From IMG/VR virus record IMGVR_UViG_3300048011_000746, positions 1 through 54,090 of that record: DNA of 54,090 nt. One strand, written 5' to 3'. Below are positions 1,748 through 23,262 of the stretch, piece after piece. Position 1 is the first letter of the stretch; the number at the start of each line of letters is the position of its first letter. The notes below the pieces were generated by a model that worked only from the letters and a program-made list of their open reading frames with translations, ran no database searches and was not told the DNA's origin. The position numbers and the translations under genes are program-made. The stretch comes from a virus.

Positions 1748-2046
1748 CAATACCAGCCCATCAACATTCTAGTTTCTTCGGGCACCATCTCAACACCAAA
1801 CGGTGGATCAAATACCAATTCTCTTTTTACTGTTTCGACTCCATCTAGTGCCAGTGTTGTTTCATATATACCTTCGCATATCTCGTCAGCAAACGGACAC
1901 ATCATACTGGTAAGTGTGTGCTTGATATGAACATGTGTACCTTCGCAATGCACTTCATATATTAGCCCAAGATCCTGTACACTTAGGCTTACTTCTGGAT
2001 CGTATACTTCTCGTAGTGCTTCTCTTACTGCTTCTTCTGTGATCAT
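1747..2046 (-). CDS. MIP18/DUF59 family protein (Fe-S assembly-like)
   Basis: Small single-domain protein of the MIP18 (PaaD/SufT-like) family, whose members help mature iron-sulfur proteins. The family signatures are visible: YDPEV near residue 15, the DLGLIYEV strand near residue 26, and MMCPFADEI with the conserved Cys-Pro near residue 48. The 99-residue length is normal for the domain. It starts by ATGA overlap with the carbamoyltransferase stop (2043-2046) and its own stop overlaps the next ATG. It may support a host or phage Fe-S enzyme during infection; no partner is identifiable here beyond the adjacent four-cysteine mini-protein. Confidence 0.82.
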   Translation of the reverse strand: MITEEAVREALREVYDPEVSLSVQDLGLIYEVHCEGTHVHIKHTLTSMMCPFADEICEGIYETTLALDGVETVKRELVFDPPFGVEMVPEETRMLMGWY

Positions 2047-3533
2047 GTGAATACCTTTACTCCATAGTGGTTTTCAAATTCTTTTGCGTCTTCTACTGTG
2101 TTGACAATAGGCTTGCCTTTGATGTTGAGGCTGGTGTTCAGTAGTATAGGACACCCTGTCTCTTCATACCAACGTTCTAACAGTTTTCTAAAGCCCATGC
2201 CTTCTTTTGCAGAAACTGTCTGTACCCGAGAGGTGCCGTCCCCGTGCGTGATTGCAGGTAGTCCAGTATCCGTGCAAGTTGCAGTGTATTGCATGAAGGG
2301 ACCGACATATCCGTCGAAATAGGTAGACGCATGCTCCTCCAGTACTGCTGGCGCAAAAGGTCTAAACTTCTGTCTTCGCTTAATGGTGTTGACTCTATCT
2401 TTAATGTTGGCACCTCGGGGGTCTGCAAGTAAGGAGCGATTACCAAAGGCTCTGGGTCCAAACTCAGCACGACCGTTGGCAACACCAACAATGCCAGTAG
2501 TAAGTAGTTCTTGTAATGCTTGTTCAACTGGATACTCTCCTTCTATGTTGTACCCTGTGTACATATGCGGCATGGGCAAGTACTGTTTTTTGTGTGCTAG
2601 TACAGCGCCTATAGCCGACCCTGCGTCACCCGGATTAGCCATAACATGCATGTTGTTCCAATCGCTGCGGATGCTGCCGTTGGCACTACAGTTTAGAGCA
2701 CACCCTCCCATGAGCACAAGATTACCCGAAGGCGATTTCCACCTAGCCCAGTTGCTGATTATCTTGAGTATGTACTTGTAAACTGCTTGGGTACCAGCTG
2801 CTATGTCAAACATGTCCTGTTCTGTGGTGAGGTCAGGACGCCACCATGTACACCCTCGGTGTAGGTTGTGCTTTAACTTGATACGTGGCTTGTCATTGAA
2901 TATATGCCACAGAGAATCTTCGTTGGGCAATACAAAAAAATCATGCAGTATGTCATTGAACAATCTCAGGGGGTCGCCGTATGCTGCCATGCCCATAAGG
3001 ATATATTCGTCCTCTTGTGGTTTTAATCCCACTCTCTGTGTGAGGGCCGAGTACCATAACCCAATGGAATGTGGGTACCCTTGAGAATAGATTTTCCTGA
3101 GTCCTTTTTTTCTGTCTGCGTTCCAGATAGTGAGTGTATCGAATTCCCCAATGCTGTCGAGAACCACACAAGTGGCGGCGTCAAAATCGCTAGTATAAAA
3201 ACCGGCAGCAGCATGGGCAAGATGATGATCAGTATACCTAATAGGAGCATGTATCCCATAAGATCCAAGGTAACGACCGATATTGTTTTCAGCCAACCGA
3301 AGTCCTTGGCCTGCTCTAAACTGTCTAAGAGTTTTGATACCGGGTCTTTCATACCATACAACTTCATCTGGTTCTCCCCATTGTCGTGCGTACTCTATTA
3401 ATTTATCATTTAAATGTGCATCATTTTTTACACCACTGAAGCGTTCGCTGTGACTGGCAAACTCTAGCCCGTCATCTGCAAACACTGCTAGAGCAGCATC
3501 ATGACTGTTAGCACTTATACCCCAAGTAATCAT
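2043..3533 (-). CDS. Carbamoyltransferase, NodU/CmcH/TobZ family
   Basis: Predicted to use carbamoyl phosphate and ATP to O-carbamoylate a sugar or other hydroxyl acceptor. The N-terminal Kae1-like domain has the metal-binding HHLAH motif (in TDHHLAHAA, near residue 104). The C-terminal YrdC-like half carries GRAEFGPRAFGNRS, the hallmark of this family. The 496-residue length is close to shorter family members. It sits in the replication operon, overlapping the upstream small membrane gene by ATGA (3530-3533) and the MIP18 gene downstream. NodU-type enzymes are common in marine T4-like phages; the acceptor is unknown, but the window encodes many glycan enzymes that could provide one. Confidence 0.88.
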   Translation of the reverse strand: MITWGISANSHDAALAVFADDGLEFASHSERFSGVKNDAHLNDKLIEYARQWGEPDEVVWYERPGIKTLRQFRAGQGLRLAENNIGRYLGSYGIHAPIRYTDHHLAHAAAGFYTSDFDAATCVVLDSIGEFDTLTIWNADRKKGLRKIYSQGYPHSIGLWYSALTQRVGLKPQEDEYILMGMAAYGDPLRLFNDILHDFFVLPNEDSLWHIFNDKPRIKLKHNLHRGCTWWRPDLTTEQDMFDIAAGTQAVYKYILKIISNWARWKSPSGNLVLMGGCALNCSANGSIRSDWNNMHVMANPGDAGSAIGAVLAHKKQYLPMPHMYTGYNIEGEYPVEQALQELLTTGIVGVANGRAEFGPRAFGNRSLLADPRGANIKDRVNTIKRRQKFRPFAPAVLEEHASTYFDGYVGPFMQYTATCTDTGLPAITHGDGTSRVQTVSAKEGMGFRKLLERWYEETGCPILLNTSLNIKGKPIVNTVEDAKEFENHYGVKVFT

Positions 3534-3691
3534 TTGTAGATAAACGGGTCCTTTTTGCGCAGCTCTTTGAGACGCTTTCTAAAACGTACTTCTTCAGCAA
3601 TGCGAGTGTATGGCCAGATAATAATTCTCCACACAGTCATAACTGCAAATACTATTCCTAGCCAAATTTTATTTAATATATTCAAAACCAT
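3530..3691 (-). CDS. 53-residue single-span membrane protein
   Basis: A compact frame between primase and carbamoyltransferase. The ATG lies inside the primase 3' end (10-base overlap) and the TGA forms an ATGA overlap with the carbamoyltransferase start. Residues 9-27 are strongly hydrophobic with two tryptophans (IWLGIVFAVMTVWRIIIW), giving one membrane helix. The C-terminal half is highly basic (RFRKRLKELRKK) and probably cytoplasmic by the positive-inside rule. I recall similar short WP-R-EE-RF-KRLKEL proteins in marine T4-like phages but know no function. Overlaps on both sides support it as a true gene. Confidence 0.7.
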   Translation of the reverse strand: MVLNILNKIWLGIVFAVMTVWRIIIWPYTRIAEEVRFRKRLKELRKKDPFIYK

Positions 3692-4674
3692 TTTTTTGCT
3701 CTCAGTCTAATTTTAAGTGGGCTGCTCTCAGCAGCACTTGCAATGCTGTACAACGTATACAGTCTACCGTACTTAGCCACTGCATCACCAACATCGTTGA
3801 TGTCCGGATCCCAGTTGGGCATGCTTACATGCCAGCCTCTGTCAATGGCTTGTTCAACAAGTTTGCTGCCTGCTTTATCTCTATCAGGAACAACATATAT
3901 ATCTTTGTTTAGTCTGTTGAGCAGCAGTGCTTGAGCATCGCCAATGTCACTGCCGCTGATAGCACACCCGTCTACATGCAGTGCATCAATCTGTCCTTCG
4001 CATAATATGCAGAATATCTTGTTGGGGCTCTGTTCGTCTAAGTTAAACACATAGCCCGGCTGCATGGTAGTAAGATACTTGCTTTTGCTTTCCCCTACTG
4101 CACGAGCTGTATATCCAACGATACGGCCCTCGTAGTAGAAGGGAATAATAAGTCTATCACGATAAGCAAGTGTTGGCGACCAGTAGTAATCAGTGTCGTC
4201 CAAGTTTAAATTTCTTTGTGACATATAAGTTATCACATCTAAAAAATACTTGAAATATTTGTTGTTTTCATTATAGTCTGGAATATCTGCTATGCGCACT
4301 GCTTCGTCTGGTAACTGCACAGTGCTAAACTCAGGCAGCTCAACTTTGTGTTGCTGAACTTCTACACCTTCGTTTGAACGCATAACATCCAGTGCCAGTT
4401 TTGTTATTTCATTGTCGGGCGTGTTCAGCCACTCTAATAACTTTTTAAACTTGTAACTGAGGTTACGTCCTGGTTGCCAACTTGCTTTGAAGCCACAGTT
4501 AAAACAATGATATGAAATAACCTCGCCTTCGGTTATGAGTCCGCCTCTGCCTCGTGTATCTGCATTTTCATTATTGTGAACACAACAAGGCGCATTGAAA
4601 CTTGTCCACCCACTAGGAGTAGTCTTGCGCTTTGCAGGCAGATAGATATTCAAAAGATCAGATACGATGCTCAT
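3682..4674 (-). CDS. 61: DNA primase, T4 gp61 type
   Basis: Synthesises RNA primers on the lagging strand in complex with the gp41 helicase. An N-terminal zinc-binding domain is visible (CCVH near residue 30 and CFNCG near residue 57). A Toprim catalytic core lies in the second half: LCEGQIDALH with the conserved Glu, AISGSD, and VVPDRDKAG with the DxD metal ligands. At 330 residues it is close to T4 gp61 (342). The ATG sits exactly 6 bases after an early -10 hexamer, so the mRNA is predicted to be leaderless. It is the first gene of the primase-to-helicase operon. Confidence 0.92.
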   Translation of the reverse strand: MSIVSDLLNIYLPAKRKTTPSGWTSFNAPCCVHNNENADTRGRGGLITEGEVISYHCFNCGFKASWQPGRNLSYKFKKLLEWLNTPDNEITKLALDVMRSNEGVEVQQHKVELPEFSTVQLPDEAVRIADIPDYNENNKYFKYFLDVITYMSQRNLNLDDTDYYWSPTLAYRDRLIIPFYYEGRIVGYTARAVGESKSKYLTTMQPGYVFNLDEQSPNKIFCILCEGQIDALHVDGCAISGSDIGDAQALLLNRLNKDIYVVPDRDKAGSKLVEQAIDRGWHVSMPNWDPDINDVGDAVAKYGRLYTLYSIASAAESSPLKIRLRAKKWF

Positions 4675-5069: not shown

Positions 5070-5858
5070 TTAATTTCTCACTAATATCTTTGTTACTTTG
5101 TTTGTAGGATCTGCACTCAGTTTAAATCTTAAAAATGTAAACACTCCATTGAAATTTGCAGGTGTTGGTGTAGTTTCAGTTCCGTCAAATGTTAATGTAC
5201 TGACAGTTGTCCAGTTGTTTACACCTGTAATCTGATTGTCAAGAGTGCCTTGGACTTCTATGGTTCCTACATACGAATCAGTATACACTGCAACTGTGTG
5301 CAATGCTGTGTTTCCGTTGATTTCAGGATGAGCTGTTATCTGATCTGCACTGTCGCTGCCTGCAACCCAATAGTCTTGTTCTTGATAAAAATTTTCTACG
5401 TTTACGCTGGCCTTTGGTCCCGGAAACGCCATACCGTCAACATACATAATTCCTGCGCTTCCAAATTGCCTATCTGCATATGTTAGCGTATTTGAAGTTT
5501 CGCCATTTAAATAAACGTTGTAGTGCAAGTATTGTTGTTTAATGTTTAACAAATCATTTTCAGTAACGGTTGCTGTAAACATACCTTTTAATGAAACACT
5601 CGATCCATCATCTTGTACAGTGCAATTACGTTCAATAATCTTATTGTTGTTTTCATCAAAAACTACAATCACAGGTGTATCTGCAATTCTAATAGGTTTC
5701 TGATCTGCATTCAATAAACGAAATTGAAAGTCGTTGTCTATGCCTCTATATACTTTTAGTTGTCTACTATACACTGGTCTATACTCCACACTGTATCCAG
5801 TATCGTTTGAGATAATGTCAACTTTATTTTTGACTAAATATCTAGGTATTAACTGCAT
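5070..5858 (-). CDS. Probable virion structural protein
   Basis: 262 residues from the ATG at 5858. An in-frame TTG 21 bases upstream is possible, but AAAGGA at 5865-5870 sits at ribosome-binding distance from the ATG and decides the start. The N-terminal part has QLKVYRGIDNDFQFRLL followed by polymer-like beta segments, reminiscent of the N-terminal domain of baseplate or tail-fibre attachment proteins. The C-terminal part repeats the small beta-domain style of the next gene. No enzyme motif is visible. A late-promoter-like octamer lies 25 bases upstream, consistent with a structural role. Confidence 0.55.
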   Translation of the reverse strand: MQLIPRYLVKNKVDIISNDTGYSVEYRPVYSRQLKVYRGIDNDFQFRLLNADQKPIRIADTPVIVVFDENNNKIIERNCTVQDDGSSVSLKGMFTATVTENDLLNIKQQYLHYNVYLNGETSNTLTYADRQFGSAGIMYVDGMAFPGPKASVNVENFYQEQDYWVAGSDSADQITAHPEINGNTALHTVAVYTDSYVGTIEVQGTLDNQITGVNNWTTVSTLTFDGTETTPTPANFNGVFTFLRFKLSADPTNKVTKILVRN

Positions 5859-5882
5859 ACGGGATCCTTTACTATACAAGTG

Positions 5883-5896: not shown

Positions 5897-6268
5897 ATGT
5901 TATTAAAAGAAATAGAACAAGACTTTCCATATATTAGCGTAGTTGCTTACGGCGGCCAAGAATATGTGGGTATCATTATTAACCAAGACCAGTACATTAC
6001 AACCATGTATGTGTACACTGACCTTCGCACAGACGAGGACAAACAGTTGCTGGTAGACCTGGGAGAAATATGGTGGTGGGAATCAAATAGAATGATTCCA
6101 ATTAATATTTTTTTGCGTGGGGAAATAGAATCTTTAAACTATTGTAAGATGAGCATGAATAGTAAAAATACCAAAGTAGTAATCGGACCTTGTGTGAACA
6201 TCAACAACTTATCTGTTAAGAGAGTTAAAAGAAAAAGTGTGCAGGTGATTAAAAAACCTAAGGATTAA
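5897..6268 (+). CDS. Unknown 123-residue protein
   Basis: One of the few plus-strand genes. It starts at ATG 5897, begins MLLKEIEQDFPYIS and has a central WWWESNRMIPINIF segment and a basic C terminus (VKRVKRKSVQVIKKPK). No domain is recognised. The upstream space is only 38 bases and shared with the divergent gene at 5858; I see no clear Shine-Dalgarno sequence for this start. Its 3' end overlaps the convergent DnaE-like gene by 11 bases. The mix of acidic N terminus and basic tail could suit a nucleic-acid or protein-binding role, but this is a guess. Confidence 0.6.
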   Translation: MLLKEIEQDFPYISVVAYGGQEYVGIIINQDQYITTMYVYTDLRTDEDKQLLVDLGEIWWWESNRMIPINIFLRGEIESLNYCKMSMNSKNTKVVIGPCVNINNLSVKRVKRKSVQVIKKPKD

Positions 6269-6818
6269 GTTGTTCGCACAACAAATTCATATGCACTACA
6301 CACGCCATAGCATATGAAATAGCATGTGCCTTCTTAAAATAGTACTCGCCGCTGCTAGGCTTCTTCCATACTTCTTCGTTTATCGTTTGCCAAGTTTCGT
6401 TGACAAGATGGCGTTTCGCAGGCCGTATCATCGCTAACACTGCTGCTAACTGTTCCACCGACTGCGGCTTTAATTGTTTTAATAACTCGCTGTGCCCGTT
6501 TAGATGAAATACCTGATTTGAAAATTCTTTGTGTTCCAGTAGTTGCCATAGTGGTTGTGTGTCCATTAGTTGCGTTAAATGTGCTTCGTCTCGAACATCC
6601 TTGTAAATGCTTACATTAAGAAAGTCCAATTTAAAGTAGCCACGAGCGTCTGCTTCTTTGTGATCAATTGTAGCGATTTCGTTAAAAGGATTGTGCGGTA
6701 TCTCAGTAACATAAACACCAGTGTTGTGCTTTTTACCTGTATCTAATTTTGCCACACGGTGTTGTATCTTGTTTAAGATAATATTTCTGTCAGCAAAGTC
6801 AATATCAATATCAGGCAT
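6258..6818 (-). CDS. Miniature DnaE/PolC-like protein with catalytic aspartates
   Basis: 186 residues that line up with widely separated motifs of bacterial C-family DNA polymerases (DnaE). PDIDIDF at residues 2-8 matches the PDxDxDF catalytic motif. HNTGVYV at 31-37 matches HAGGVVI. KLDFLN at 63-68 matches KFDFLG, which holds the third catalytic Asp. FHLNGHSELLKQLKP (104-118) with IRPAKR (131-136) matches FQLES...LIKRLQP...RPGPL, and FKKAHAISYA (161-170) matches FNKSHSAAYA. The long finger, PHP and tau-binding regions of DnaE are absent. It starts by TAATG overlap with the nucleotidyltransferase gene. Whether it polymerises DNA or only retains the fold is unknown. Confidence 0.7.
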   Translation of the reverse strand: MPDIDIDFADRNIILNKIQHRVAKLDTGKKHNTGVYVTEIPHNPFNEIATIDHKEADARGYFKLDFLNVSIYKDVRDEAHLTQLMDTQPLWQLLEHKEFSNQVFHLNGHSELLKQLKPQSVEQLAAVLAMIRPAKRHLVNETWQTINEEVWKKPSSGEYYFKKAHAISYAMACVVHMNLLCEQLNP

Positions 6819-7228
6819 TAAAGTTTTCCTTCTTCTCTCATTTTAGCTCTTATTTTAGTTGCACTAATATCATGTATTTCTTCACCTAAGTCGTGTTCAG
6901 TAAATGTGTAACCTACACCGCGGCCATAACTAATATCCACAATGTTAGGTACAAACATTATAACATATTCTTCACCGTATGTAAAGCCTGCACTTGCCAA
7001 TCCCTGTTCAATATTCATAGATACAGTTTCACAATCAAATGGATTGTCGTCTTGTGATGCTGTGCGACCGGCGCCTGCGTCTTCCCCAACAATGCCGCCA
7101 ACATCTCGAATCATAATACATACTTGGCCAGTTTCTGCTAATGCACGTTTAAACAGTTCGGTATGACCATCATGCCATGGCTGCCACCGTCCTAGCATTT
7201 GTGTTGTAGGTTTTTGATAATCAAACAT
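6818..7228 (-). CDS. Nucleotidyltransferase, HxGH cytidylyl/adenylyl-transferase family
   Basis: 136 residues from the ATG at 7228, which overlaps the stop of the kinase gene by 8 bases; a longer in-frame reading upstream would run back into that gene. HDGH at residues 19-22 within a GRWQPWHDGH segment is the nucleotide-binding HxGH motif, and ISATKIR near the C terminus is the matching ISxTxxR motif. These define the superfamily that joins a nucleotide to a small phosphate substrate, for example NMN, glycerol-phosphate or sugar-phosphate. The substrate cannot be read from sequence. Its coupling to an APS-kinase-like gene suggests a shared pathway. Confidence 0.8.
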   Translation of the reverse strand: MFDYQKPTTQMLGRWQPWHDGHTELFKRALAETGQVCIMIRDVGGIVGEDAGAGRTASQDDNPFDCETVSMNIEQGLASAGFTYGEEYVIMFVPNIVDISYGRGVGYTFTEHDLGEEIHDISATKIRAKMREEGKL

Positions 7229-7652
7229 TTTTATTTTTCCAGTTTTGATAACGTTCAACAGCAAGCATCAGTGTTTCGTGTGTGTTGTCGAACCAATCTG
7301 CTACATGGTAATCGCATTGCAAAGGTTTTTCAAATACTGCATTTGTATCTTCGTACCTGCCCGCTTTGATAGTATCCATCCACACAGTAAAGTCTGCGGC
7401 AAACTTTTTGCGTGTTTCCTCAGTAGGGCACACAAAGTCACACACTGCAATTCTTCCGGCGGCAACAACACCGTCGGCAATCATACTCATACGAAATGCT
7501 TGACGCTCTCTGCCTTCGGTACTAAAGTCCCAGTCGTTGTACTTTTCTCTAATAGCATCTGCATTTATCCACACACCGCCAATTAATTCTGCAAACGGTT
7601 TTGCTAGTGTGCTTTTGCCGCTGCCTGGCAATCCACATATTAATATTTTCAT
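7221..7652 (-). CDS. Adenylylsulfate kinase-like P-loop kinase
   Basis: 143 residues. GLPGSGKST at residues 7-15 is a Walker A motif. NADAIREKYNDWDFS followed by GRERQAFRM resembles the DNVR...LGFS...R...R substrate region of APS kinases (CysC), and CDFVCPTEETR matches the ISP...R strand after it. CysC phosphorylates adenosine 5'-phosphosulfate to PAPS, the sulfate donor of sulfotransferases, and a sulfotransferase is encoded at 23263. The ends overlap the neighbouring genes by 4 and 8 bases. A more general small-molecule kinase of the zeta-toxin/AAA_33 kind is the main alternative. Confidence 0.68.
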   Translation of the reverse strand: MKILICGLPGSGKSTLAKPFAELIGGVWINADAIREKYNDWDFSTEGRERQAFRMSMIADGVVAAGRIAVCDFVCPTEETRKKFAADFTVWMDTIKAGRYEDTNAVFEKPLQCDYHVADWFDNTHETLMLAVERYQNWKNKNV

Positions 7653-8946: not shown

Positions 8947-9427
8947 TTTTTTCGTAACCGTGTTCTTTGGCGAGCTCGCGGATTTCTTTTTTTGTAGATA
9001 TTCTAGCAAGTAAATCGACCTCATCTTGTTTCATGTTTGGATATATTTGTGACAATAGTTTTGCTGCTTTGCTGCTATCGTCTTTTTTCTTTTTAAGACC
9101 AATCCACGGATGGAATTGACTTTTGCGCTTGTCGCCTTCTTTCATACGTAAATCCGCAGCAACACACAGCAGCTGGTATTGTAGCTTGTTGTGATTGGTG
9201 CCGCCCAACACATTCCAGTTTTTGTTGTAGTATTCATTTACTTTAAAAATTGCAAGAGCCTGCTGATCGGTGCTGCCTTTTACACTGCTTATGTACCGAT
9301 TCAAGTTCCACAAGTCGCCCTTAATATCTTTCTTACCGACATCCGTGGCAGCATCATATAGATCTTTGTACCCCATATCAATGCTGGGTATTAACACTTT
9401 AAATAAGTCTAATTCTTTGTTTGCCAC
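8936..9427 (-). CDS. Possible clamp-loader small subunit (gp62-like)
   Basis: 163 residues, helical, with NRYISSVKGS, a conserved-looking NEYYNKNWNVL segment, a central LQYQLLCVAADLR helix and a C-terminal small domain (DEVDLLARISTKKEIRELA). The order of a helical NR-S motif, a Lys-rich linker and a C-terminal helical hairpin is loosely like T4 gp62 and other phage clamp-loader A subunits, but identity is too weak to be sure. gp44 is not in this window. It overlaps the KdsB gene by 19 bases. Confidence 0.4.
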   Translation of the reverse strand: MANKELDLFKVLIPSIDMGYKDLYDAATDVGKKDIKGDLWNLNRYISSVKGSTDQQALAIFKVNEYYNKNWNVLGGTNHNKLQYQLLCVAADLRMKEGDKRKSQFHPWIGLKKKKDDSSKAAKLLSQIYPNMKQDEVDLLARISTKKEIRELAKEHGYEKIDI

Positions 9428-10092
9428 GTGATAACATCCTCTGGTGTATTAATCTCTACTCCATTAAAGTATACACTCTGTGCGCCAATTTGCCAACCGC
9501 TTTTTAGCCAGCGCAACTGTTCAAGTGATTCAACAGTTTCTTCTTGTGTAACTTTTAAACTAGGGTAAGCTATTAGTGCATGACGCTTGTATCCGTACAC
9601 TCCTAGATGCCATTCGCCGTATCCTGTTATACCTCTACCAAACCATAGTGCTTGATTAGGATAGGCATGTATCATCTTAACCGAGTTCGGATCGGCTTGC
9701 ATCTCTTTGGGCATGTCAGTGTACACTGTGCTTACAGAATAGTTATAGGATAGGCTTTCGGCACACTTTTCAATCATCTCAACTGTTACATCGGGCATGT
9801 CGCCTTGCACATTAATAAACGTGTCGTACTGTGCAAAGAAGTTGTTCTTGATAGCACCTGCACATCTTTCTGTACCGTTTGCATAATCTGTTGGATCAAT
9901 CCAACACTTGTTAGGACCAAACAGTTCGTATATGCGCATGTCGTCTGTAAGCACGTATGTTGGTATCTTAGACGCTGTACAAGCGTCATACACACGCCTA
10001 ATCATAGGAACACCATCTAACAGTGCCAACGGCTTTCCAGGGTAGCGTGTGCTACCGTATCTAGCCGGTATAAGAATAGCGGTGGATGTCAT
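9409..10092 (-). CDS. kdsB: 3-deoxy-manno-octulosonate cytidylyltransferase (CMP-Kdo synthetase)
   Basis: Activates Kdo with CTP to CMP-Kdo, the donor used by Kdo transferases. The N-terminal IPARYGSTRYPGKPL is the signature of the family, followed by VLTDD and the NVQGDMPDV metal/nucleotide motif near residue 95. The 227-residue length is slightly below bacterial KdsB (about 248). The ATG at 10092 is preferred over the TTG codon just before it. It overlaps the KdsA gene by 32 bases, so both are translated from one message. It may boost or replace host CMP-Kdo supply, or activate a related eight- or nine-carbon sugar. Confidence 0.88.
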   Translation of the reverse strand: MTSTAILIPARYGSTRYPGKPLALLDGVPMIRRVYDACTASKIPTYVLTDDMRIYELFGPNKCWIDPTDYANGTERCAGAIKNNFFAQYDTFINVQGDMPDVTVEMIEKCAESLSYNYSVSTVYTDMPKEMQADPNSVKMIHAYPNQALWFGRGITGYGEWHLGVYGYKRHALIAYPSLKVTQEETVESLEQLRWLKSGWQIGAQSVYFNGVEINTPEDVITWQTKN

Positions 10093-10834
10093 CAACTACC
10101 TCCTCAAAGTCTTCTAGTCTCACCATATTAGGACCGTCACTGGGTGCGTTGTCTGGATCAGGATGTACTTCTAAAAAGAAACTTGATACACCCATAGCAC
10201 TAGCGGCACGACAAAGGGGCTGAACATGATCCCTGTTACCGCCACTGCTACCGCCCAGTCCTCCAGGTTTTTGTACCGAGTGCGTAACATCGTATACAAA
10301 TCCGCTACCAAGAAGGTTAAGCAAAATGTGCATACCAGTGAAATCGTTAACCAAGGTGTTATATCCAAAACTTGTACCTCTTTCTGTAATCCATACTTCC
10401 TTTGCACCTTCAGTTTTGCTTAAGATACCTTCAACGTCCCACGGTGCTAAGAACTGTCCTTTTTTAATATTTACAATCATATCTGTGTTAACTGCGGCAG
10501 TGATTAAATCTGTTTGTCTACAAAGGAATGCTGGAATTTGTAATACATCAACTGCATCTTCAAACTCGTCTCTAATAGTATACACTTGCCGCTCGTCATG
10601 TACATCTGTAAGTGTGTTTACGCCTAATGTATTTTTAAGTTCTCTAAAATCAAATAGTGTAGAATAAAGTCCTTGTCCACGTTCGCCACTGACACTTGTG
10701 CGATTTGCTTTGTCGTAACTGGCTTTAAAGTAATATTCGATGCCATACTTGTCACACACACGTTTACACTCACGTGCAATCTCTGCACTCTGTCCTAGTG
10801 ACTCGTGTTGACACGGTCCTGCAATAATTCTCAT
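10061..10834 (-). CDS. kdsA: 3-deoxy-8-phosphooctulonate synthase
   Basis: Condenses arabinose 5-phosphate with phosphoenolpyruvate to Kdo 8-phosphate. Family motifs run the length of the protein: AGPCQHES near residue 6, FKASYDKANRTS near 37, LTDVHDE, IPAFLCRQTDL, ERGTSFGYN, YDVTHSVQKPGG, FLEVHPDPD and SDGPN. The Cys in AGPC, His in DVTH, Glu in FLEVH and Asp in SDGPN correspond to the metal ligands of metal-dependent KdsA enzymes. At 257 residues it lacks part of the N-terminal extension of E. coli KdsA. KdsC phosphatase and KdsD isomerase are not in the window and would have to come from the host. Confidence 0.9.
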   Translation of the reverse strand: MRIIAGPCQHESLGQSAEIARECKRVCDKYGIEYYFKASYDKANRTSVSGERGQGLYSTLFDFRELKNTLGVNTLTDVHDERQVYTIRDEFEDAVDVLQIPAFLCRQTDLITAAVNTDMIVNIKKGQFLAPWDVEGILSKTEGAKEVWITERGTSFGYNTLVNDFTGMHILLNLLGSGFVYDVTHSVQKPGGLGGSSGGNRDHVQPLCRAASAMGVSSFFLEVHPDPDNAPSDGPNMVRLEDFEEVVDDIHRYSYTG

Positions 10835-11097
10835 TCGCTGTCCTTTAATATGTAATATGTTGTAACTAGTTGCTCAAGTTGTTTTTTTAATGTTGGATGA
10901 ATGTTTGCTAAATCACTAAGGTGTCTCCATTGCGCATAATCCAATAATGGTTCTTTGCCTACATCTCTTCCTATTTCCCAACGTCCAGGATACAAAGATT
11001 TTTTAGGATCGTCTCGAAATTTTGCATACGTTACTCCGTTTGCTTTTTCGTATATAAGAGCTTCTCCGGCTAAGTCTTCGTTTTTAGGACGTAACAT
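10831..11097 (-). CDS. Unknown 88-residue protein
   Basis: Short protein starting MLRPKNEDLAGEALIYEKANGVTYAKFR, with a mid-segment YPGRWEIGRD and a helical C terminus. No family recognised. It lies between the sugar dehydrogenase and KdsA, overlapping KdsA by ATGA (10831-10834) and the dehydrogenase by TAATG. GAGGAAAT just upstream of the ATG is a good ribosome-binding site. Its conserved position in a sugar operon does not by itself imply a sugar role. Confidence 0.6.
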   Translation of the reverse strand: MLRPKNEDLAGEALIYEKANGVTYAKFRDDPKKSLYPGRWEIGRDVGKEPLLDYAQWRHLSDLANIHPTLKKQLEQLVTTYYILKDSE

Positions 11098-11888
11098 TAT
11101 TTCCTCATTCCACTAAACGTTGTCTTTTTAAATTTCTCGTTGTCATTTTTAAGGCTAGAAATTAGATCAAAGTTTAAGTTATTTTTTTCTAATGTATGAG
11201 CTAATGCTGCAACATCTTTGGGCAAACACATTCCACCGTATCCTCGTAATCTTTTGTTTACATCAAGGTACATGTTTTTGGTTTTGCCTGTGTGTACATA
11301 TGCGTCTTTTACTTGCGAGTAATCACAATCAAACTTTTCACACAATTCATAAAATACATTAGCAAACACAATACGTAATGCTGCATAGCTGTTGTTGAAG
11401 TACTTGAGTATTTCTGCTTCTGTAGGCGCTAGTTGTTTTACTGCTTTGGGCAAATGGCCGTGTGCTTCGACAATCTTTTTGTACACGTACGGGTCGTCTG
11501 TGCCAATTGCCAGCAGTTCGTGATTGTTGATAAAGTCGTCTGCCGCAGCACGTTCACGTAAAAATTCTGGAGCACAGCATATTGTGAGAGATGAATAATT
11601 ATCAATCATTCTTTCAGTAAACCCTGGTTCAACTGTACTTCTTATACAAACTACACCTTGATAGTTTATTTCTTTTAGTTCTACAAGAACACTTTCAATA
11701 ACACTAGTATCACACGCACCATCTACTTCCGGAGTAGGCAAACACAAGAATACAACCTCAGTGTCTACTACATCATCTATTGTGGTATCAAACTTTACAT
11801 CGTGTTCTACCACTTCGTGATTTAGCAATCTAAATCCTGTTGCGTTTGCATTGCCTACAACGCCCATTCCGATAATACCTAATTTCAT
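11097..11888 (-). CDS. UDP-sugar 6-dehydrogenase-like protein, short form
   Basis: 263 residues of the UDP-glucose/GDP-mannose dehydrogenase family. The N-terminal Rossmann motif is GMGVVGNA, followed by FLCLPTP, STVEPG, and CAPEFLRERAA in the central domain. The catalytic Cys motif is GYGGMCLPKD near residue 222. Normal members have about 400 residues; here the protein stops soon after the catalytic Cys and lacks most of the C-terminal UDP-binding domain. It may use another sugar donor, act with a partner, or be a shortened phage version. It overlaps the epimerase gene by ATGA (11885-11888). Confidence 0.8.
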   Translation of the reverse strand: MKLGIIGMGVVGNANATGFRLLNHEVVEHDVKFDTTIDDVVDTEVVFLCLPTPEVDGACDTSVIESVLVELKEINYQGVVCIRSTVEPGFTERMIDNYSSLTICCAPEFLRERAAADDFINNHELLAIGTDDPYVYKKIVEAHGHLPKAVKQLAPTEAEILKYFNNSYAALRIVFANVFYELCEKFDCDYSQVKDAYVHTGKTKNMYLDVNKRLRGYGGMCLPKDVAALAHTLEKNNLNFDLISSLKNDNEKFKKTTFSGMRK

Positions 11889-12748
11889 AATAAACTTTCC
11901 ACTGTTTTTCTCAACCCTGTTTGCAAAGGTGTATAATCTTCAAACCCTGTTAGCTGTCTAACAAGTGTTGTATCCGGACATCTGCGAGTTGCACTGCCCT
12001 TTGGTGAGCCAAACACTTGTAGTTTGTCCGGATCGATTCCCATGATGCCCATGATCATTTTTGCCACCGTTGCAATTTTAACTTCGTCGCAGTTGCCTAC
12101 GTTTACAGTTGCATTGCTGTGATTGCGCACCAGCATATCGGTCATACGTACAGCATCGTCTACATAGCAAAAACTTCTTGTGTCGTTGCCGTTGATATAG
12201 TATTCACCTGCCTTGCAACGTTCGACAAACTCATTAACAAAGTGGTCTACTTGACCAGGTCCGTATACATTGAAGTAGCGTATGATGAGATATTCTAACC
12301 CACTGTTGGCAACTAGGTTTTCGCCGAGAGCTTTTGGAATACTATAACTCCATCTTGGATTTTGTATGTCTTTAAACATAATCGGTACTTGCTCATCAGT
12401 TGGAATAGGGTAATAACCTTCATCGATTGCTCCGTTGAATATTTCGCATGTGCTTGCAAACACAAACTTTGTATCAGTATCTTTGTATCGCTGTATGAGA
12501 TTAACAGTTGGAAGTGTGTTGTTGATTAGTACATCAGTGGGTTTTTGATAAAACAATCGTGTGCCATTGGTTGCAGCAAGGTGCACAACAACGTCAAAGT
12601 CCGGCATGTGTTTTGTAACATCCGGATTTGCTAAATCTTCGCCTCTAATTTTTATATCACACGGAACAACATCTGCGTTGTTTTGTTTTAGGTAGTTGTA
12701 GTAATGACTACCTATAAACCCATGTGAACCAGTTACTAATGTTTTCAT
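11885..12748 (-). CDS. NAD-dependent sugar epimerase/dehydratase (extended SDR)
   Basis: 287 residues of the GalE/WbpP-like SDR superfamily acting on nucleotide sugars. GSHGFIGSH at the N terminus binds NAD(P); VVHLAATNG, FASTCEIF and the YSIPK catalytic Tyr-Lys pair follow. RYFNVYGPGQ near residue 170 is typical of the family. The ATG at 12748 overlaps the SGNH gene stop as ATGA; an in-frame TTG two codons upstream is less likely. Together with the dehydrogenase it could make a uronic acid or altered hexose for the glycosyltransferases. Exact substrate unknown. Confidence 0.85.
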   Translation of the reverse strand: MKTLVTGSHGFIGSHYYNYLKQNNADVVPCDIKIRGEDLANPDVTKHMPDFDVVVHLAATNGTRLFYQKPTDVLINNTLPTVNLIQRYKDTDTKFVFASTCEIFNGAIDEGYYPIPTDEQVPIMFKDIQNPRWSYSIPKALGENLVANSGLEYLIIRYFNVYGPGQVDHFVNEFVERCKAGEYYINGNDTRSFCYVDDAVRMTDMLVRNHSNATVNVGNCDEVKIATVAKMIMGIMGIDPDKLQVFGSPKGSATRRCPDTTLVRQLTGFEDYTPLQTGLRKTVESLL

Positions 12749-13452
12749 ATCCAATTTGCGTCTTCTTTGTTTTTTGATGCTGTATAAAACCTTTCAGGTT
12801 TAATCATAGTGCTGTGAATATCAAAATCAGTTTCAATATGCTGTTGCATGTAATTAGCAAATTCAATGTTTTGCTGGTAGCTCATATGACAAGGCCTAAA
12901 GTCCTCGTCCTCAGGAAGGTTTAAATTATTATAATCTATTTTACTTATATTAAACATTGAGCCGTAATGTAGTGTAGGAAAATCAAACGCAAAAATAATA
13001 TGAGCATCTGGACGCAAATATTTAATACTATCTAAATATGCTGTATGGTACATGATGTTACTATCGTAATATACACTTTTGTTAATTTCGCCTTTGATAG
13101 TGTTTATCAAACGCTTGTTCCAAGTTTCAGCAGGTTTTGAAAATGTGTTCGGCACATCCTCGTCATTGTTCATTGATTTTAAATCTGCAATACTAGAATT
13201 TTGATAGAATGCCAAATGTAAAATTCTATTGTTTTTTGTTGTAAAAATGCTGCCACGACTGGTGCTAGTTACAACAAAAATAATCATATTGTGTAAATGG
13301 TTGTATTTTCTAAATTGATGATACGAATAATCAAAACTACTGCCGCCTACACTGTAATTTGTAAATTCTTTGTTTATATTTGTAGACAGACAAGAAATCC
13401 ACGAGTTTGGATAATCTAGTGCATAACTGTCACCAAAAATACCAATAGTCAT
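12745..13452 (-). CDS. SGNH/GDSL-like hydrolase, possible carbohydrate esterase
   Basis: 235 residues starting MTIGIFGDSYALD. GDSY near residue 7 matches block I of SGNH hydrolases with the nucleophilic Ser; SVGGSSFDY gives a block II Gly; HMSYQQN near residue 190 provides a candidate catalytic His (the Asp-x-x-His block is imperfect, with CHMS preceded by FRPC). Similar proteins remove or add acyl groups on polysaccharides. It is embedded in the sugar operon with four-base overlaps on both sides. Activity is inferred, and a non-catalytic relative is possible. Confidence 0.6.
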   Translation of the reverse strand: MTIGIFGDSYALDYPNSWISCLSTNINKEFTNYSVGGSSFDYSYHQFRKYNHLHNMIIFVVTSTSRGSIFTTKNNRILHLAFYQNSSIADLKSMNNDEDVPNTFSKPAETWNKRLINTIKGEINKSVYYDSNIMYHTAYLDSIKYLRPDAHIIFAFDFPTLHYGSMFNISKIDYNNLNLPEDEDFRPCHMSYQQNIEFANYMQQHIETDFDIHSTMIKPERFYTASKNKEDANWI

Positions 13453-14171
13453 TTAGAGTTCCTTATATATCTTTTTGCAGGCTTGCCCTTGTGATGAATC
13501 ATAAAATTGTTCATCAACGATTCGTTCATCGGCGTGTGCGTAGTTTTATTATACGCTATGTTTGAAAGATTGTAAACCTTTTTAAAATGACTTGCTGCTA
13601 ACATGCAAACTTGTCCGTCATACCATAATTCAATCTCTTTGGGTTTTGTATCTACAGTATAATAATGTTCATACAACTCCACGAACTTTGTATAATCTTT
13701 GTGAGCAGTATCTAAAATTACATAGCCGCTTTCTGCACTATATCCAGGCTTGTTTAAATAACTGTGATCAAACAATCCAATTAAATTTTTGTTGATAGTT
13801 TTAAGAAAAAAATCAACACTTGTGTGTTTTAAAAATTGTATGTCTGCATCGATCCACACTAGATATCTAGTGTCAACTGTTTTCATTGCATGCAAAAACG
13901 CAAAACCTTTTTTTGCAAACTTGATATTTTTTGCATCATCGGTTTTGCGTTTGTATGCTTGCCATGCAGACTTACAACTGACATTCCAATCGTAGTATGT
14001 TATTCTGTTGTCCAAAGGCAAAGAACATATTATGTTTTCTGCATATATTCTAAGTTCAAAATCTTTTGGTGTATACTGTAGAAAACTGTCAATCATAGTT
14101 GCTCCTACTACATCAAAATATTCTTGATTCATAGTAGAAGCAAAGGTAAAATTAGTTGACTTCTGTACCAC
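13449..14171 (-). CDS. GT-A fold glycosyltransferase, paralogue 1
   Basis: 240 residues. FASTMNQEYF at the N terminus, IDSFLQYTP, then a WIDADI segment near residue 110 whose DAD is a DxD-type metal/nucleotide-sugar motif, and a C-terminal HHKG. The same layout occurs in the proteins at 18545 and 21058, so the three are paralogues. The start is GTG at 14171 with a 20-base overlap into the cupin gene; an internal ATG at residue 14 is possible but would cut the first strand. Donor and acceptor are unknown. Confidence 0.75.
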   Translation of the reverse strand: MVQKSTNFTFASTMNQEYFDVVGATMIDSFLQYTPKDFELRIYAENIICSLPLDNRITYYDWNVSCKSAWQAYKRKTDDAKNIKFAKKGFAFLHAMKTVDTRYLVWIDADIQFLKHTSVDFFLKTINKNLIGLFDHSYLNKPGYSAESGYVILDTAHKDYTKFVELYEHYYTVDTKPKEIELWYDGQVCMLAASHFKKVYNLSNIAYNKTTHTPMNESLMNNFMIHHKGKPAKRYIRNSK

Positions 14172-14499
14172 TTGTGCGTCTTACAATATCATCGTGATTG
14201 AATTCAGCCCAGTACAGTTCAAATGCTACACCGTCTTCGACGCCTTCAAACTGATGAATCTTACCTGGCTTGACTTGTGTAAAGTCGCCTGGGCCTAAAA
14301 TAGTTTCATCTACTAGTCCTTGATCATCTTGCCATACACGAACAATCATCTTGCCCGACTCTACAAAGAACCCATTCCATTTAAACTGGTGTTCGTGTTC
14401 ACTGCACTTGTATCCTGCTTTGTATTCAATACGGTGAAACTCTAGTACACCGTTTGCGTGGATCAGTTCTGTCTGACCCCAAATCTTTCCTGCCTTCAT
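14152..14499 (-). CDS. Small cupin protein
   Basis: 115-residue single cupin. The two cupin motifs are visible: HEHQFKWNGFFVESGKM near residue 36 with two His and a Glu ligand, and PGKIHQFEG near residue 79 with the fourth His. Such small cupins are often sugar isomerases or binding proteins; this one resembles the mannose-6-phosphate isomerase-type cupin, as does the C-terminal half of the fusion at 22460. AGGAGACAAC precedes the ATG as a good ribosome-binding site. Exact reaction not known. Confidence 0.75.
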   Translation of the reverse strand: MKAGKIWGQTELIHANGVLEFHRIEYKAGYKCSEHEHQFKWNGFFVESGKMIVRVWQDDQGLVDETILGPGDFTQVKPGKIHQFEGVEDGVAFELYWAEFNHDDIVRRTSGTEVN

Positions 14500-14507
14500 G
14501 TTGTCTC

Positions 14508-15014
14508 CTATAATAGTTTACCAAAGTCAATAACTTCACTTTGTCTGTTTATATCTTTTACAAAAAATGCACATTCAGGCTTGTGTCCTTGTGTAATAGG
14601 AACACTCAACAAGTGTCCGTTGCGCATCTTAGGAAAGAACCATTTTACATCATTGTAAAAATTAACAGTTTCAATTTTTCCAAATTTAGGATGTGTACCT
14701 GTTAACGGATTGAATAAAAATGCTTCAAAGCCTCTATCATTTAAACTAGTCAAAGGCAATACTTCTAAATCGCTGCCTGCTTGACTACATCCTACTGCTA
14801 GGCACCAATCCAGTGGCATTGTAAGCTCGTGTCCGTTGATCTCTAATACAATTGCCGGCGAATTAAAACTTTCTAAAAAAATCAACGGATTAAAGAAGAA
14901 ATCTGGATCGTCGGCGTTGCTGTTGTCTAGTACTGCAAATCGTATATCGTCTTCGATATTGTCAGGCAATTTGTTTAATTCAAATGATGTGTTTTCTAGT
15001 GTGAGTATTCTCAT
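14508..15014 (-). CDS. Unknown protein next to uvsW
   Basis: 168 residues starting MRILTLENTSFELNKLPDNI, with FFFNPLIFLESF, a GHELTMPLDWCLAVG segment and GIETVNFYND-like strands. It reads like a mixed alpha/beta phage protein without catalytic signatures. It lies directly downstream of uvsW, so it may be co-expressed with it. I recall similar proteins near uvsW in marine T4-like phages but with no function. Confidence 0.55.
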   Translation of the reverse strand: MRILTLENTSFELNKLPDNIEDDIRFAVLDNSNADDPDFFFNPLIFLESFNSPAIVLEINGHELTMPLDWCLAVGCSQAGSDLEVLPLTSLNDRGFEAFLFNPLTGTHPKFGKIETVNFYNDVKWFFPKMRNGHLLSVPITQGHKPECAFFVKDINRQSEVIDFGKLL

Positions 15015-16478
15015 TTATTTCCATTCCACTTTTTCGATTGTGAATGGGTACTGCGCCTCTTTGTAAAACTTTTTACGGTGAGTAAGGTGCCGCTTCGCAT
15101 ACTTACAAGTACTTGTAAGATCCCATATTTGTACGAAGTCTTTGTCCTTTGCCTTTCTTACGCCTCTACCAATTGATTGAATAACTCTTACAAAACTTTT
15201 TCCTGGCTCAATGAGAACAAGATTAAAAATACGAGGAATGTTAAGTCCAACTGCTGCAACTCCATATGTAGCAATAATTACTTCATTGGTTCCTTCGCGG
15301 ATTGTATCGTATGTTTCTTTCCTGTCTTTGTTCTTAACAGCACCGCTTACAAACGTGCTGCCTGGAATAAGTTCTGCAAGCATTTCGCCTGCGCTAATTC
15401 TATCTACTAGTATAAGTGTGTTGCCTGATTCCTTAACTGTGTTAAGTAGTTTGCCTATATATTCTATTCTTGCCTGATTGGTAACAAGATATTTTAATTC
15501 CTCTTGATATCCGCTGTGTGCTACAGTATCAATTAGCTGCACAACATTGACATGACATTCTGACAGTACGCCTTTGTCTTGTAATTCTTTTGCTGTAATC
15601 TGTCCAATTACAGGACCTAAGCTAGCATGAATACTTTCAAACTCAAACTTCTCTTTAGGCACTGTGCCAGTTAGTCCCCAGCGGATTGGAGCGTTACGTA
15701 GGTTGCGAGTGAGCAGGTTCTTAAGCACCTCTGCTTTGGCTTGGTGTACTTCGTCAACAATAACAGTGCTTACACCTTCCAAGAACTCAGCCAATGATAA
15801 CACTGCTGATCCGTCCTTGTGCTTCTTGTCGAGAATATTCAAACTCTGCCAAGTGCAAATAGTGTGAGTCTTACCTAGTTGCTTTCTGTCTCCGAAGTAC
15901 ACTCCTACGTCCAACCCACAGTTAATATAGTCTTCTTCAGTTTGCTCAACAAGGCTTTTGTTGGGTACAATAACCAAACTACGTCCATACTTTTCACTCA
16001 TGTGTGATAGCGTTGCTGTAGTAATAGTCTTACCTGCGCCTGTTGCAATCTGCTGTAGACTCTGTGGATTGTTTGCAAAGTTGTTGATTGCTTCTACTTG
16101 ATAGTCGCGTAAAATAATTTCTTCGCCGGCTACTGGATGACCTTCTGGCCAGCATACTCCTTGGTCTGCCCAATAGCGTTCTGTAACTTGTGGAAAGTTT
16201 AAGTCAATAGGATGTCTACGGTCATCAATGTCGACTATCTGTACATTGTTTTTTGCCAGCACTTCACTAACAACATCAAGGTGGTTGACATACCCTGTGC
16301 CGCCAATACCAAAGAAAGCAACCTTGCCATCCCAGCGTCCTAGTTTGTACTGGGGCATATATTTTGCATACGGCACTTCAAACTTGAGAGCATTTGCCAG
16401 CTTACGACGAACATCTACATCAAGGCCTTCGATCTTGATGTTTACCTCGTCTTCGATAATCAGTTTACAAGTAGGCAC
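15015..16478 (-). CDS. uvsW: UvsW-type DNA/RNA helicase
   Basis: Superfamily 2 helicase that, in T4, branch-migrates recombination intermediates and unwinds R-loops, moving the phage from origin- to recombination-dependent replication. Walker A ATGAGKT, DEVH box, GLTGT motif III and QSIGRGVRK motif VI are all present. The N-terminal substrate domain KFEVPYAKYMPQYKLGRWDGK is typical. The GTG at 16478 is chosen because GGAGAG stands about 8 bases upstream; an ATG at 16520 would give 14 more residues with no clear ribosome-binding site. About 487 residues, close to T4 UvsW. Confidence 0.92.
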   Translation of the reverse strand: MPTCKLIIEDEVNIKIEGLDVDVRRKLANALKFEVPYAKYMPQYKLGRWDGKVAFFGIGGTGYVNHLDVVSEVLAKNNVQIVDIDDRRHPIDLNFPQVTERYWADQGVCWPEGHPVAGEEIILRDYQVEAINNFANNPQSLQQIATGAGKTITTATLSHMSEKYGRSLVIVPNKSLVEQTEEDYINCGLDVGVYFGDRKQLGKTHTICTWQSLNILDKKHKDGSAVLSLAEFLEGVSTVIVDEVHQAKAEVLKNLLTRNLRNAPIRWGLTGTVPKEKFEFESIHASLGPVIGQITAKELQDKGVLSECHVNVVQLIDTVAHSGYQEELKYLVTNQARIEYIGKLLNTVKESGNTLILVDRISAGEMLAELIPGSTFVSGAVKNKDRKETYDTIREGTNEVIIATYGVAAVGLNIPRIFNLVLIEPGKSFVRVIQSIGRGVRKAKDKDFVQIWDLTSTCKYAKRHLTHRKKFYKEAQYPFTIEKVEWK

Positions 16479-17637
16479 TATTAGCTCTCCAAAAATAACT
16501 TTTTTCTGTATCGTGTGCAATTGTTAAATCGCACTTGTCGTTAACATATATAGCAACAAGTGTAGTTGCTCTAGTACTTGTTAACATTAGTGTGCATTGT
16601 GGTACCCAATCTTCTTTAACTAAAAGTTTAGGTAGTTTATTCTTACTAATATACACTACTTTTGTAGTGTTGTCAAGCCAATTGTTCAATTGCTTGTCTT
16701 TAACAAAATCGTTGAAGTTATAATCGTCGGAGCCATCAACTCTTGTTAGTGCACAATGCTGATTACTAGGTATTAGATATTTTAACGAGTTATAAACTCT
16801 AGTTATTTGATCTAACTCAAGTCCTTGATCTAATGTCACTAGCAAAGGAAATCTATCTAGTTCATGTATACTTGAGATGACTTTATCCAAGGAATATTGT
16901 TGTGAATTTGCAACAATAGTATTTTCAGTTCTATTGCATATTTCACCGACAAGGCCGCTAGGTGTCTCGCCTGTAATATATTCGATACCCAGTTGCTTTT
17001 TTCTGTCAATAAGTTGAACTAGAGATAAATCATCAGTTAGGTACGATATATCATTTTTAAAATTTTGAAGTTCGCCATTCCACAATCCAGGAATATGATT
17101 TTTTGGATTGTTCTTTATATCAGCTACTTCACGATAAACAGTCAACAACTCGTTGTCAATATCAAAATCTTTTTTTGAAAATTCATCCAGCAAGTCTAAT
17201 ATTACATTAGGTGTAAATTTAAAATAATGTTCATGCGAACCTTTGGCATGATAATATATATTTCTGTATTTGTTTGCAATTGTTTCTAAACTTATAATTG
17301 TCTTTTTAGAAAAAGGAAATCTCACTTTGATCCATTGCCAATTACTTTTATAAGATTCATATACTTGTTTAGATTCATAGACTTCGACATTGTCTACAAT
17401 TTTAATGTACTTGCTGCGATCTATTTCTCGCAAAGGCATTCTAGTAGGTTCGTTGCCGGTGAACAACTCTAGTTCTGCAACTTCGAGCAACTTGGATTTT
17501 ACCAACTCATATTGGCGATCAGTGAGTGCTGTTCCTTTGTTGCACTGCCTATTGATGCTTTCGAGTATTTGCTTGTTGTTGTCAGAAACGCCGATTGTTT
17601 CCACGTAGTGCTGTAAGTAATCTTCAATGTAAATCAT
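16465..17637 (-). CDS. Unknown 390-residue protein upstream of uvsW
   Basis: Largely helical N-terminal half with LTDRQYELVKSKLLE and EPTRMPLREIDRSKYIKIV segments, then VRFPFSKKTIISLE, and a C-terminal part with beta strands (CTLMLTSTRATTLVAIYVND). No enzyme motif is clear. It starts at ATG 17637, exactly 6 bases after an early -10, so the mRNA should be leaderless. It overlaps uvsW by 14 bases and is probably co-expressed with it, suggesting a recombination or replication role. I recall homologues beside uvsW in marine T4-like phages. Confidence 0.6.
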   Translation of the reverse strand: MIYIEDYLQHYVETIGVSDNNKQILESINRQCNKGTALTDRQYELVKSKLLEVAELELFTGNEPTRMPLREIDRSKYIKIVDNVEVYESKQVYESYKSNWQWIKVRFPFSKKTIISLETIANKYRNIYYHAKGSHEHYFKFTPNVILDLLDEFSKKDFDIDNELLTVYREVADIKNNPKNHIPGLWNGELQNFKNDISYLTDDLSLVQLIDRKKQLGIEYITGETPSGLVGEICNRTENTIVANSQQYSLDKVISSIHELDRFPLLVTLDQGLELDQITRVYNSLKYLIPSNQHCALTRVDGSDDYNFNDFVKDKQLNNWLDNTTKVVYISKNKLPKLLVKEDWVPQCTLMLTSTRATTLVAIYVNDKCDLTIAHDTEKSYFWRANSAYL

Positions 17638-17643
17638 ACTGTT

Positions 17644-17672
17644 AATATAACAGATTATAGGTTAGGTGTCAA
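17644..17672 (-). promoter_or_regulatory. Early sigma70-type promoter, 390-residue gene and uvsW
   Basis: Minus strand TTGACA (17667-17672), 17-base spacer, TATATT (17644-17649), then six bases and ATG. The promoter lies inside the 3' end of the preceding gene at 17655. It has the same geometry as the primase promoter and no room for a Shine-Dalgarno leader. Confidence 0.78.
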
Positions 17673-18506
17673 TCTATTCAGTGGAATACCTTGTGCAATT
17701 TCTTCAACTGTCCATTCAGTGTATGCGTAATCATTGAGCCATTGTGTTCTATCTGGTGTTAGAGGATTTTCGATGTTGTGCAAGAAGTCTATGTCGTTGC
17801 CTACATCATAAGCAAGACTATGGTTGCTAACAAAAGCAGGAACACCATTGAGTACACTATGTATCCCAGGATTGCTACTGTGGCTAATAGTGCAATGTAC
17901 GTTATCAAAGCCCATATCAAAATCATCATATGTACCGCCTATCTTTACTGGATCTTGTCTATATACGTGTTTGAGTCCACGCTCTATGTGTTCTAGTCTA
18001 CAGCGTGGATGTGGACGGAATATAATAGGACGATCTGTGTGCTTGCGTATCTCGTCGTATGTGTTTAAGAACCAGTTGCTCATGCTTGGCATATTGCGCC
18101 ATTGTAAACTTTTATCATGCTGCCCGCATATTAGTATATATTCGCCGTCTGTGCGCCAAGGTTTTAGTTCCAGTGAATGTAAGCAAGCCCGATCACTGCT
18201 ATTACCCATATCCCCAAAATAAGCATCCCTGTTAATTCCATTCAATCCTACCTTCCATGTTGTTCCTCTTTTGATTCCGCCAACTTCTAACACAATAACA
18301 TTTCTACCAGTCCTAGTGTAGTATTCGTATATGGGCCTATTGCCTGTCATTCTTCCGTTAAACAACACACTCCAAATAACTGCAACATCACTGTGCATAT
18401 CATCTTCGCAAATAATGTGCCCGGCTTTTTGCAAACTGTGTTCAAATGCTTCAAAAACAGGCTTGCTGTTTAGTGCACCATATTGCTTGAATAAACTAAA
18501 TCTCAT
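17655..18506 (-). CDS. GT-B glycosyltransferase-like protein A (KpsC/KpsS-like)
   Basis: 283 residues in a family represented three times in this window. The C-terminal half carries DRPIIFRPHPR near residue 160, a polar RPHP motif, then HSSNPGIHSVLNGVPAFV and the tail block DRTQWL...AYTEWT. RPHP followed by a Ser/Asn-Gly block is typical of GT-B capsule-type sugar transferases, including the beta-Kdo transferases KpsC and KpsS. With KdsA and KdsB in the same phage, transfer of Kdo is an attractive reading, but the sugar is not proven. It is expressed from one side of the divergent promoter at 18507. Confidence 0.6.
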   Translation of the reverse strand: MRFSLFKQYGALNSKPVFEAFEHSLQKAGHIICEDDMHSDVAVIWSVLFNGRMTGNRPIYEYYTRTGRNVIVLEVGGIKRGTTWKVGLNGINRDAYFGDMGNSSDRACLHSLELKPWRTDGEYILICGQHDKSLQWRNMPSMSNWFLNTYDEIRKHTDRPIIFRPHPRCRLEHIERGLKHVYRQDPVKIGGTYDDFDMGFDNVHCTISHSSNPGIHSVLNGVPAFVSNHSLAYDVGNDIDFLHNIENPLTPDRTQWLNDYAYTEWTVEEIAQGIPLNRLTPNL

Positions 18507-18533
18507 TGTTAAATACCATACATATATTTAACA
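18507..18533. promoter_or_regulatory. Palindromic divergent late promoter
   Basis: A perfect inverted repeat: TGTTAAATA (18507-18515), nine bases, TATTTAACA (18525-18533). Each arm presents GTTAAATA, a variant of the late octamer, to the adjacent gene, so one palindrome could drive the minus gene ending at 18506 and the plus gene starting at GTG 18545. The plus leader has AAGGA at ribosome-binding distance; the minus leader has none. Confidence 0.55.
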
Positions 18534-18544
18534 AGGACAAGCAA

Positions 18545-21780: not shown

Positions 21781-21785
21781 TTTGT

Positions 21786-23224: not shown

Positions 23225-23228
23225 GCTG

Positions 23229-23236
23229 TATTTATA
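23229..23236 (-). promoter_or_regulatory. Late promoter TATAAATA, leaderless geometry
   Basis: Exact T4-type octamer on the minus strand, followed by CAGC and the ATG of the fusion gene. With T4 late spacing, transcription would begin at or within a base of the start codon. It is back to back with the plus-strand octamer at 23250. Confidence 0.7.
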
Positions 23237-23249
23237 TGCGTAGTTTACT

Positions 23250-23257
23250 GATAAATA
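23250..23257 (+). promoter_or_regulatory. Late promoter GATAAATA, leaderless geometry
   Basis: GATAAATA followed by TTTTT and the ATG of the sulfotransferase gene at 23263, so the start codon lies where T4 late transcription would begin. No Shine-Dalgarno site exists between them. Confidence 0.68.
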
Positions 23258-23262
23258 TTTTT

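Follow-up and report, generated by a model that had tools for sequence, protein, structure and literature searches.

An open reading frame in an uncultivated virus record matches the C-terminal half of a split minimal DNA polymerase III alpha subunit

The window analyzed here, which is the whole 54,090-nucleotide stretch of IMG/VR virus record IMGVR_UViG_3300048011_000746, is probably a fragment of a phage genome. On its minus strand, an ORF of 186 amino acids was located at 6258–6818, with the ATG at 6818 and the stop codon at 6258. Five short motifs could be recognized in the same order as in bacterial DnaE, namely MPDIDIDF, KLDFLN, FHLNGHSELLKQLKP, LAMIRPAKRH, and YYFKKAHAISYA. The MPDIDIDF motif (codons 1–8; 6795–6818, minus strand) corresponds to M399–F406 of Escherichia coli Pol III alpha, which includes D401 and D403, and it marks the junction at which the polymerase is split. 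The KLDFLN motif (codons 63–68; 6615–6632, minus strand) aligned to E. coli K553–D555. Further along the chain, a retained finger segment with an invariant R132-P133 covers codons 103–136 (6411–6512, minus strand), and the YYFKKAH motif (codons 159–165; 6324–6344, minus strand) aligned to YGFNKSH at E. coli residues 754–760. The Gly-Ser triphosphate-binding motif (GRGS) was absent from the 186-residue chain. This protein is referred to as the C-half, and its separately encoded partner in related phages as the N-half.

The 3′ end of the C-half gene overlaps by 11 bases with a convergent, conserved gene on the plus strand (5897–6268), which codes for a 123-amino-acid protein of unknown function (phrog_11637). 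Beyond it, the minus strand carries genes for a virion structural protein of the conserved context (phrog_14467; 5070–5879), a T4 gp61-like DNA primase (phrog_47; 3682–4674), and a DnaB-like replicative helicase similar to T4 gp41 (phrog_19; 178–1605). In both RaK2 and PA5oct, the order was polymerase half, convergent gene of about 120 amino acids, virion protein, primase gp61, and helicase gp41. The window keeps this order, with an additional small gene ahead of the primase and more genes separating the latter from the helicase; Phosso has one extra gene between the virion protein and the primase, and the gene at the primase position of Atu_ph07 is annotated as hypothetical. A UvsW-like DNA helicase (phrog_16; 15,015–16,520, minus strand) is encoded in the window and is also found near the C-half in RaK2. 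A gene of like size and orientation was present at the phrog_11637 position in RaK2, PA5oct, Atu_ph07, and Phosso, and due to this recurrence it may be functionally linked to the polymerase half. Directly upstream of the C-half (6818–7652, minus strand), a nucleotidyltransferase-like ORF (148 amino acids) and a P-loop kinase ORF (143 amino acids) matched opposite parts of phrog_10255 (230 amino acids), which is a single chain elsewhere and two chains here. Among the replication genes (2043–3533 and 9409–24,433), inspection by eye revealed look-alikes of carbamoyltransferase, CMP-KDO synthetase, and KDO-8-phosphate synthase, as well as a sugar dehydrogenase/epimerase and several glycosyltransferases.

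Profile searches matched the C-half to PHROG family 11778 ('DNA polymerase') with an E value of 1.2e-60, in which residues 3–183 aligned to positions 8–194 of the 197-position profile, and to phrog_405, the full-length phage DnaE family, with an E value of 1.4e-9. The sole Pfam piece found was the Pol III finger domain, which matched residues 102–136 weakly and below the cut-off. A phmmer search with the single sequence against PDB chains produced only sub-significant matches (E 0.25), and therefore a profile of 81 homologues was needed for a PDB match; this profile matched solved Pol III alpha chains with E values down to 5.8e-5 and matched nothing else. The first-pass annotation, made from the sequence alone, had noted the catalytic aspartate motifs of DnaE in their proper order, and the profiles not only bore this out but also extended the homology beyond the short motifs. 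A chance match of motifs was ruled out by the family and structure statistics.

The AlphaFold2 model of the C-half, built on the 81-member alignment, had a pLDDT of 93.8 and a pTM of 0.84. Every Foldseek match to this model with E <0.001 was a bacterial Pol III alpha. Structural alignment using VIA-align placed residues 1–186 of the model on residues 400–781 of E. coli, 461–838 of Thermus aquaticus, and 419–808 of Mycobacterium tuberculosis Pol III alpha, with Z scores of 8.9–9.9 for the best Pol III alpha chains; the best unrelated fold reached only Z 3.4. Both the model fold and the residues thus place a Pol beta-like palm with three catalytic aspartates in the C-half; neither an unrelated fold nor a want of statistical similarity to DnaE, the two outcomes that the first-pass annotation had named as speaking against its reading, was encountered. 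The spacing between D5 and D65 was 60 residues compared to 152 in E. coli, and that between D65 and H165 was 100 residues compared to 205. Judged by the domain boundaries known for E. coli Pol III alpha, the C-half has lost the thumb and about half of the fingers, and the PHP, first palm half, HhH/beta-binding, and OB regions are missing as well. The absence of the PHP, beta-binding, and OB regions agrees with the first-pass annotation, whereas the finger, which it had also listed as gone, is only about half lost, with residues 103–136 retained. With the thumb missing, DNA binding may be weak.

The tblastn analysis revealed the C-half in 63 phage records, nearly all of them jumbo phages, including PA5oct, Atu_ph07, Phosso, RaK2, GAP32, 121Q, PBECO4, and XacN1; it also occurs at at least 554 loci of uncultivated viruses. 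Among the matches listed, the nearest uncultivated relative (L001) had 88% identity to the window C-half, and the best identity to members from cultured phages was about 50–53%. When 81 diverse members sharing 32–88% identity with the window protein were aligned, all of them (81/81) had D3, D5, and D65; one apparent gap in this count (L229) came from a trimmed match, and the DNA of that locus itself reads MPDIDIDF. These positions line up with the established catalytic residues of the E. coli Pol III alpha chain, D401, D403, and D555. K63, R132, and H165 were invariant too. Comparison of the C-half with close relatives gave a dN/dS of about 0.1 wherever this was computable; purifying selection acts on the C-half, and this value speaks against a decaying pseudogene. 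In Atu_ph07 (NC_042013; L102:5001-5073), the annotated C-half start is misplaced downstream, so that the DIDID motif is lost; an in-frame ATG upstream of this start would include it.

The N-half was first located by searching large relatives with the Pfam DnaE palm domain PF07733, which matched a separate ORF in three of these genomes. N-half proteins are about 150–190 amino acids long. One of them (P0002) was above the PF07733 cut-off and matched PHROG 11127 ('DNA polymerase') with an E value of 5.9e-39; the C-terminus of its chain reads GVGRGSSVASYVLYLIGVHRINSIQYGLDWREFLR and is followed by the stop codon. Among 57 diverse members, GRGS was invariant (57/57) and the chain ended 1–3 residues past a conserved EFL. 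The last residue of E. coli Pol III alpha reached by the N-half profile was 392. The predicted N-half model had an overall pLDDT of 78.6, which was higher in the C-terminal part and of low confidence in the N-terminal part, and its residues 74–185 aligned with E. coli 276–393, while the best unrelated fold gave only Z 2.2. The E. coli ranges covered by the N-half (276–393) and the C-half (400–781) are adjacent and do not overlap. On the other side of the junction, the C-half usually starts 1–2 codons ahead of DIDID, often with an in-frame stop codon close upstream. Taken together, the end of the N-half and the start of the C-half indicate that the break falls in a short linker between the two palm parts, and it was at the same place in all homologues examined (81 C-halves and 57 N-halves).

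With 60 phage records listed per half, 59 were common to both; the C-half exception was a 109 kb record, and three of the 63 C-half records were not among the 60 listed. A search of 18 large related records (14 from IMG/VR and four reference phages) revealed the C-half in 18/18, the N-half in 17/18, and a family B polymerase in 17/18, the single record lacking the N-half being the one that also lacked a PolB match. Within the 54 kb window, no PF07733 match and no family B polymerase could be found. Within a genome, the halves were as close as about 9 kb, in G016, and at the other extreme over 180 kb apart. In RaK2 and Atu_ph07, the clamp loader gp44 follows a few genes downstream of the N-half, and since the C-half adjoins gp61 and gp41, both halves reside in T4-like replication clusters. 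The full-length DnaE profile matched only the two halves in 12 large related records, and no PHP domain was detected above the cut-off in these 12. A DnaQ-type exonuclease was distributed patchily (6/13 records), and an obligate partnership with a DnaQ-like proofreading exonuclease was thereby ruled out. In Atu_ph07 (NC_042013) and PA5oct (NC_071039), the family B polymerase matches were spread over two open frames, indicating that PolB itself is interrupted in these two phages, and an intein has been reported to split the PolB of the related phage MIJ3 (PMC6892783).

The C-half and the N-half likely form a split minimal C-family polymerase that serves as an accessory heterodimer in a T4-like replisome; we infer that the two chains dimerize, that the dimer is catalytic, and that it works at the fork. 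The C-half would be the metal- and template-binding C-terminal half of a DnaE-type alpha subunit divided into two proteins of about 20 kDa, and the N-half (PHROG 11127) would bring the Gly-Arg-Gly-Ser triphosphate-binding element. Bound to each other non-covalently, the halves would restore a single Pol beta-like palm, in which D3, D5, and D65 make up the two-metal site, together with a shortened finger domain. On its own, the C-half is probably not a self-sufficient mini-enzyme, as its sequence starts exactly at PDIDIDF without the palm half that holds GRGS. The heterodimer would act as an accessory DNA polymerase next to a family B enzyme, the putative main polymerase of the replisome, and it may carry out short-tract synthesis, for instance in primer extension, gap filling, or repair, a role suggested by the loss of the thumb, PHP, and beta-binding parts. 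A bolder and less probable proposal is that the pair could form an active C-family polymerase smaller than any other known, an obligate heterodimer lacking a thumb and dedicated to extending primers for the primase-helicase before handing over to the family B enzyme, in a manner likened to that of DnaE or Pol alpha in two-polymerase replisomes.

It is unlikely that the split pair is instead catalytically dead or structural, serving as a scaffold or regulator of the replisome or binding Pol III subunits of the host as a decoy. Such a role would suit proteins that have lost the DNA- and clamp-gripping parts (thumb, HhH, beta-binding, and OB) in phages that already own a family B polymerase, yet the catalytic aspartates, K63, R132, H165, and the GRGS of the N-half are invariant, in members down to 32% identity. 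The decoy against host polymerase III, which the first-pass annotation had raised, is disfavored by this strict conservation and by the gene context; a decoy would have no need of an intact metal site, and the known parts for interaction with beta, tau, and epsilon are precisely those lost. Highly improbable is the stand-alone enzyme considered in the same annotation, by which the C-half would need no partner and act as a nucleotidyl transferase of a template-free or minimal kind; a confident single-chain fold with all three catalytic aspartates would fit this reading, but the chain lacks the GRGS element, and a partner supplying it is found alongside in nearly all records. It is hardly credible that a split intein or a recent gene break interrupts the polymerase, with protein splicing or decay as the outcome, for although the intein in the MIJ3 PolB and, from general knowledge, the split intein that joins cyanobacterial DnaE are precedents, an N-half ending 1–3 residues past EFL and a C-half starting near DIDID leave no room for intein halves, the junction is shared by every one of the 81 C-halves and 57 N-halves examined, and the dN/dS of about 0.1 argues against decay.

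An unsplit C-family polymerase of about 550 amino acids without a PHP domain (P0004) adjoins the gp41 helicase in some close relatives (L092:1474-3126, plus strand; L091; L090), in contigs that also carry the split C-half; further relatives are in L270-L349. Polymerases of this type occur at at least 308 viral loci, and as many as three DNA polymerases may be present in relatives with P0004. In the window, a different ORF was found right after the helicase. P0004 shares the C-family palm with the split pair and has the motifs PDVDIDF and LKVDIL; unlike the pair, it has both palm halves in one chain and its fingers are longer, and the similarity between them is only distant. Comparison of the halves with this unsplit mini-DnaE using hhalign yielded only moderate probabilities (58% and 90%), and thus there was no sign that the split pair arose by a recent break of the mini-DnaE gene.

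The split pair resembles a naturally occurring minimal core of the bacterial replicase. Should it prove active, it would reveal which parts of Pol III alpha are enough for catalysis, account for the second, bacterial-type polymerase in many large T4-like phages, and offer a very small, separable study system. Iyer et al. (2021) reported that 'group 2.2' jumbo phages have, besides a family B polymerase, a minimal Pol III alpha specific to phages; it is split into an N-terminal protein that binds NTP and a C-terminal one that binds Mg and template, the two genes lie far apart, and the authors suggested that the enzyme synthesizes one strand or acts in repair (PMC7824862). Our literature search found no other paper on the split enzyme and no experimental test of it. 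As the split minimal Pol III alpha was already reported in 2021, the window protein is a new member of that family, and the window gene mainly adds one member and precise boundaries to it. The window has the same C-terminal protein and the same split as the group 2.2 phages, and the family B companion is also present in relatives of the window phage; in contrast to the cultured group 2.2 phages, the window is an uncultivated fragment, with its N-half and PolB presumably lying outside it. Compared to the bacterial DnaE/PolC enzymes of E. coli, T. aquaticus, and M. tuberculosis, the palm fold, the three catalytic aspartates, and the finger motifs are shared, and the counterpart of the bacterial GS motif sits in the N-half partner. 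The bacterial enzyme, however, is one chain of more than 1000 residues, whereas the phage polymerase consists of two chains of about 20 kDa without the PHP, thumb, HhH, beta-binding, and OB parts.
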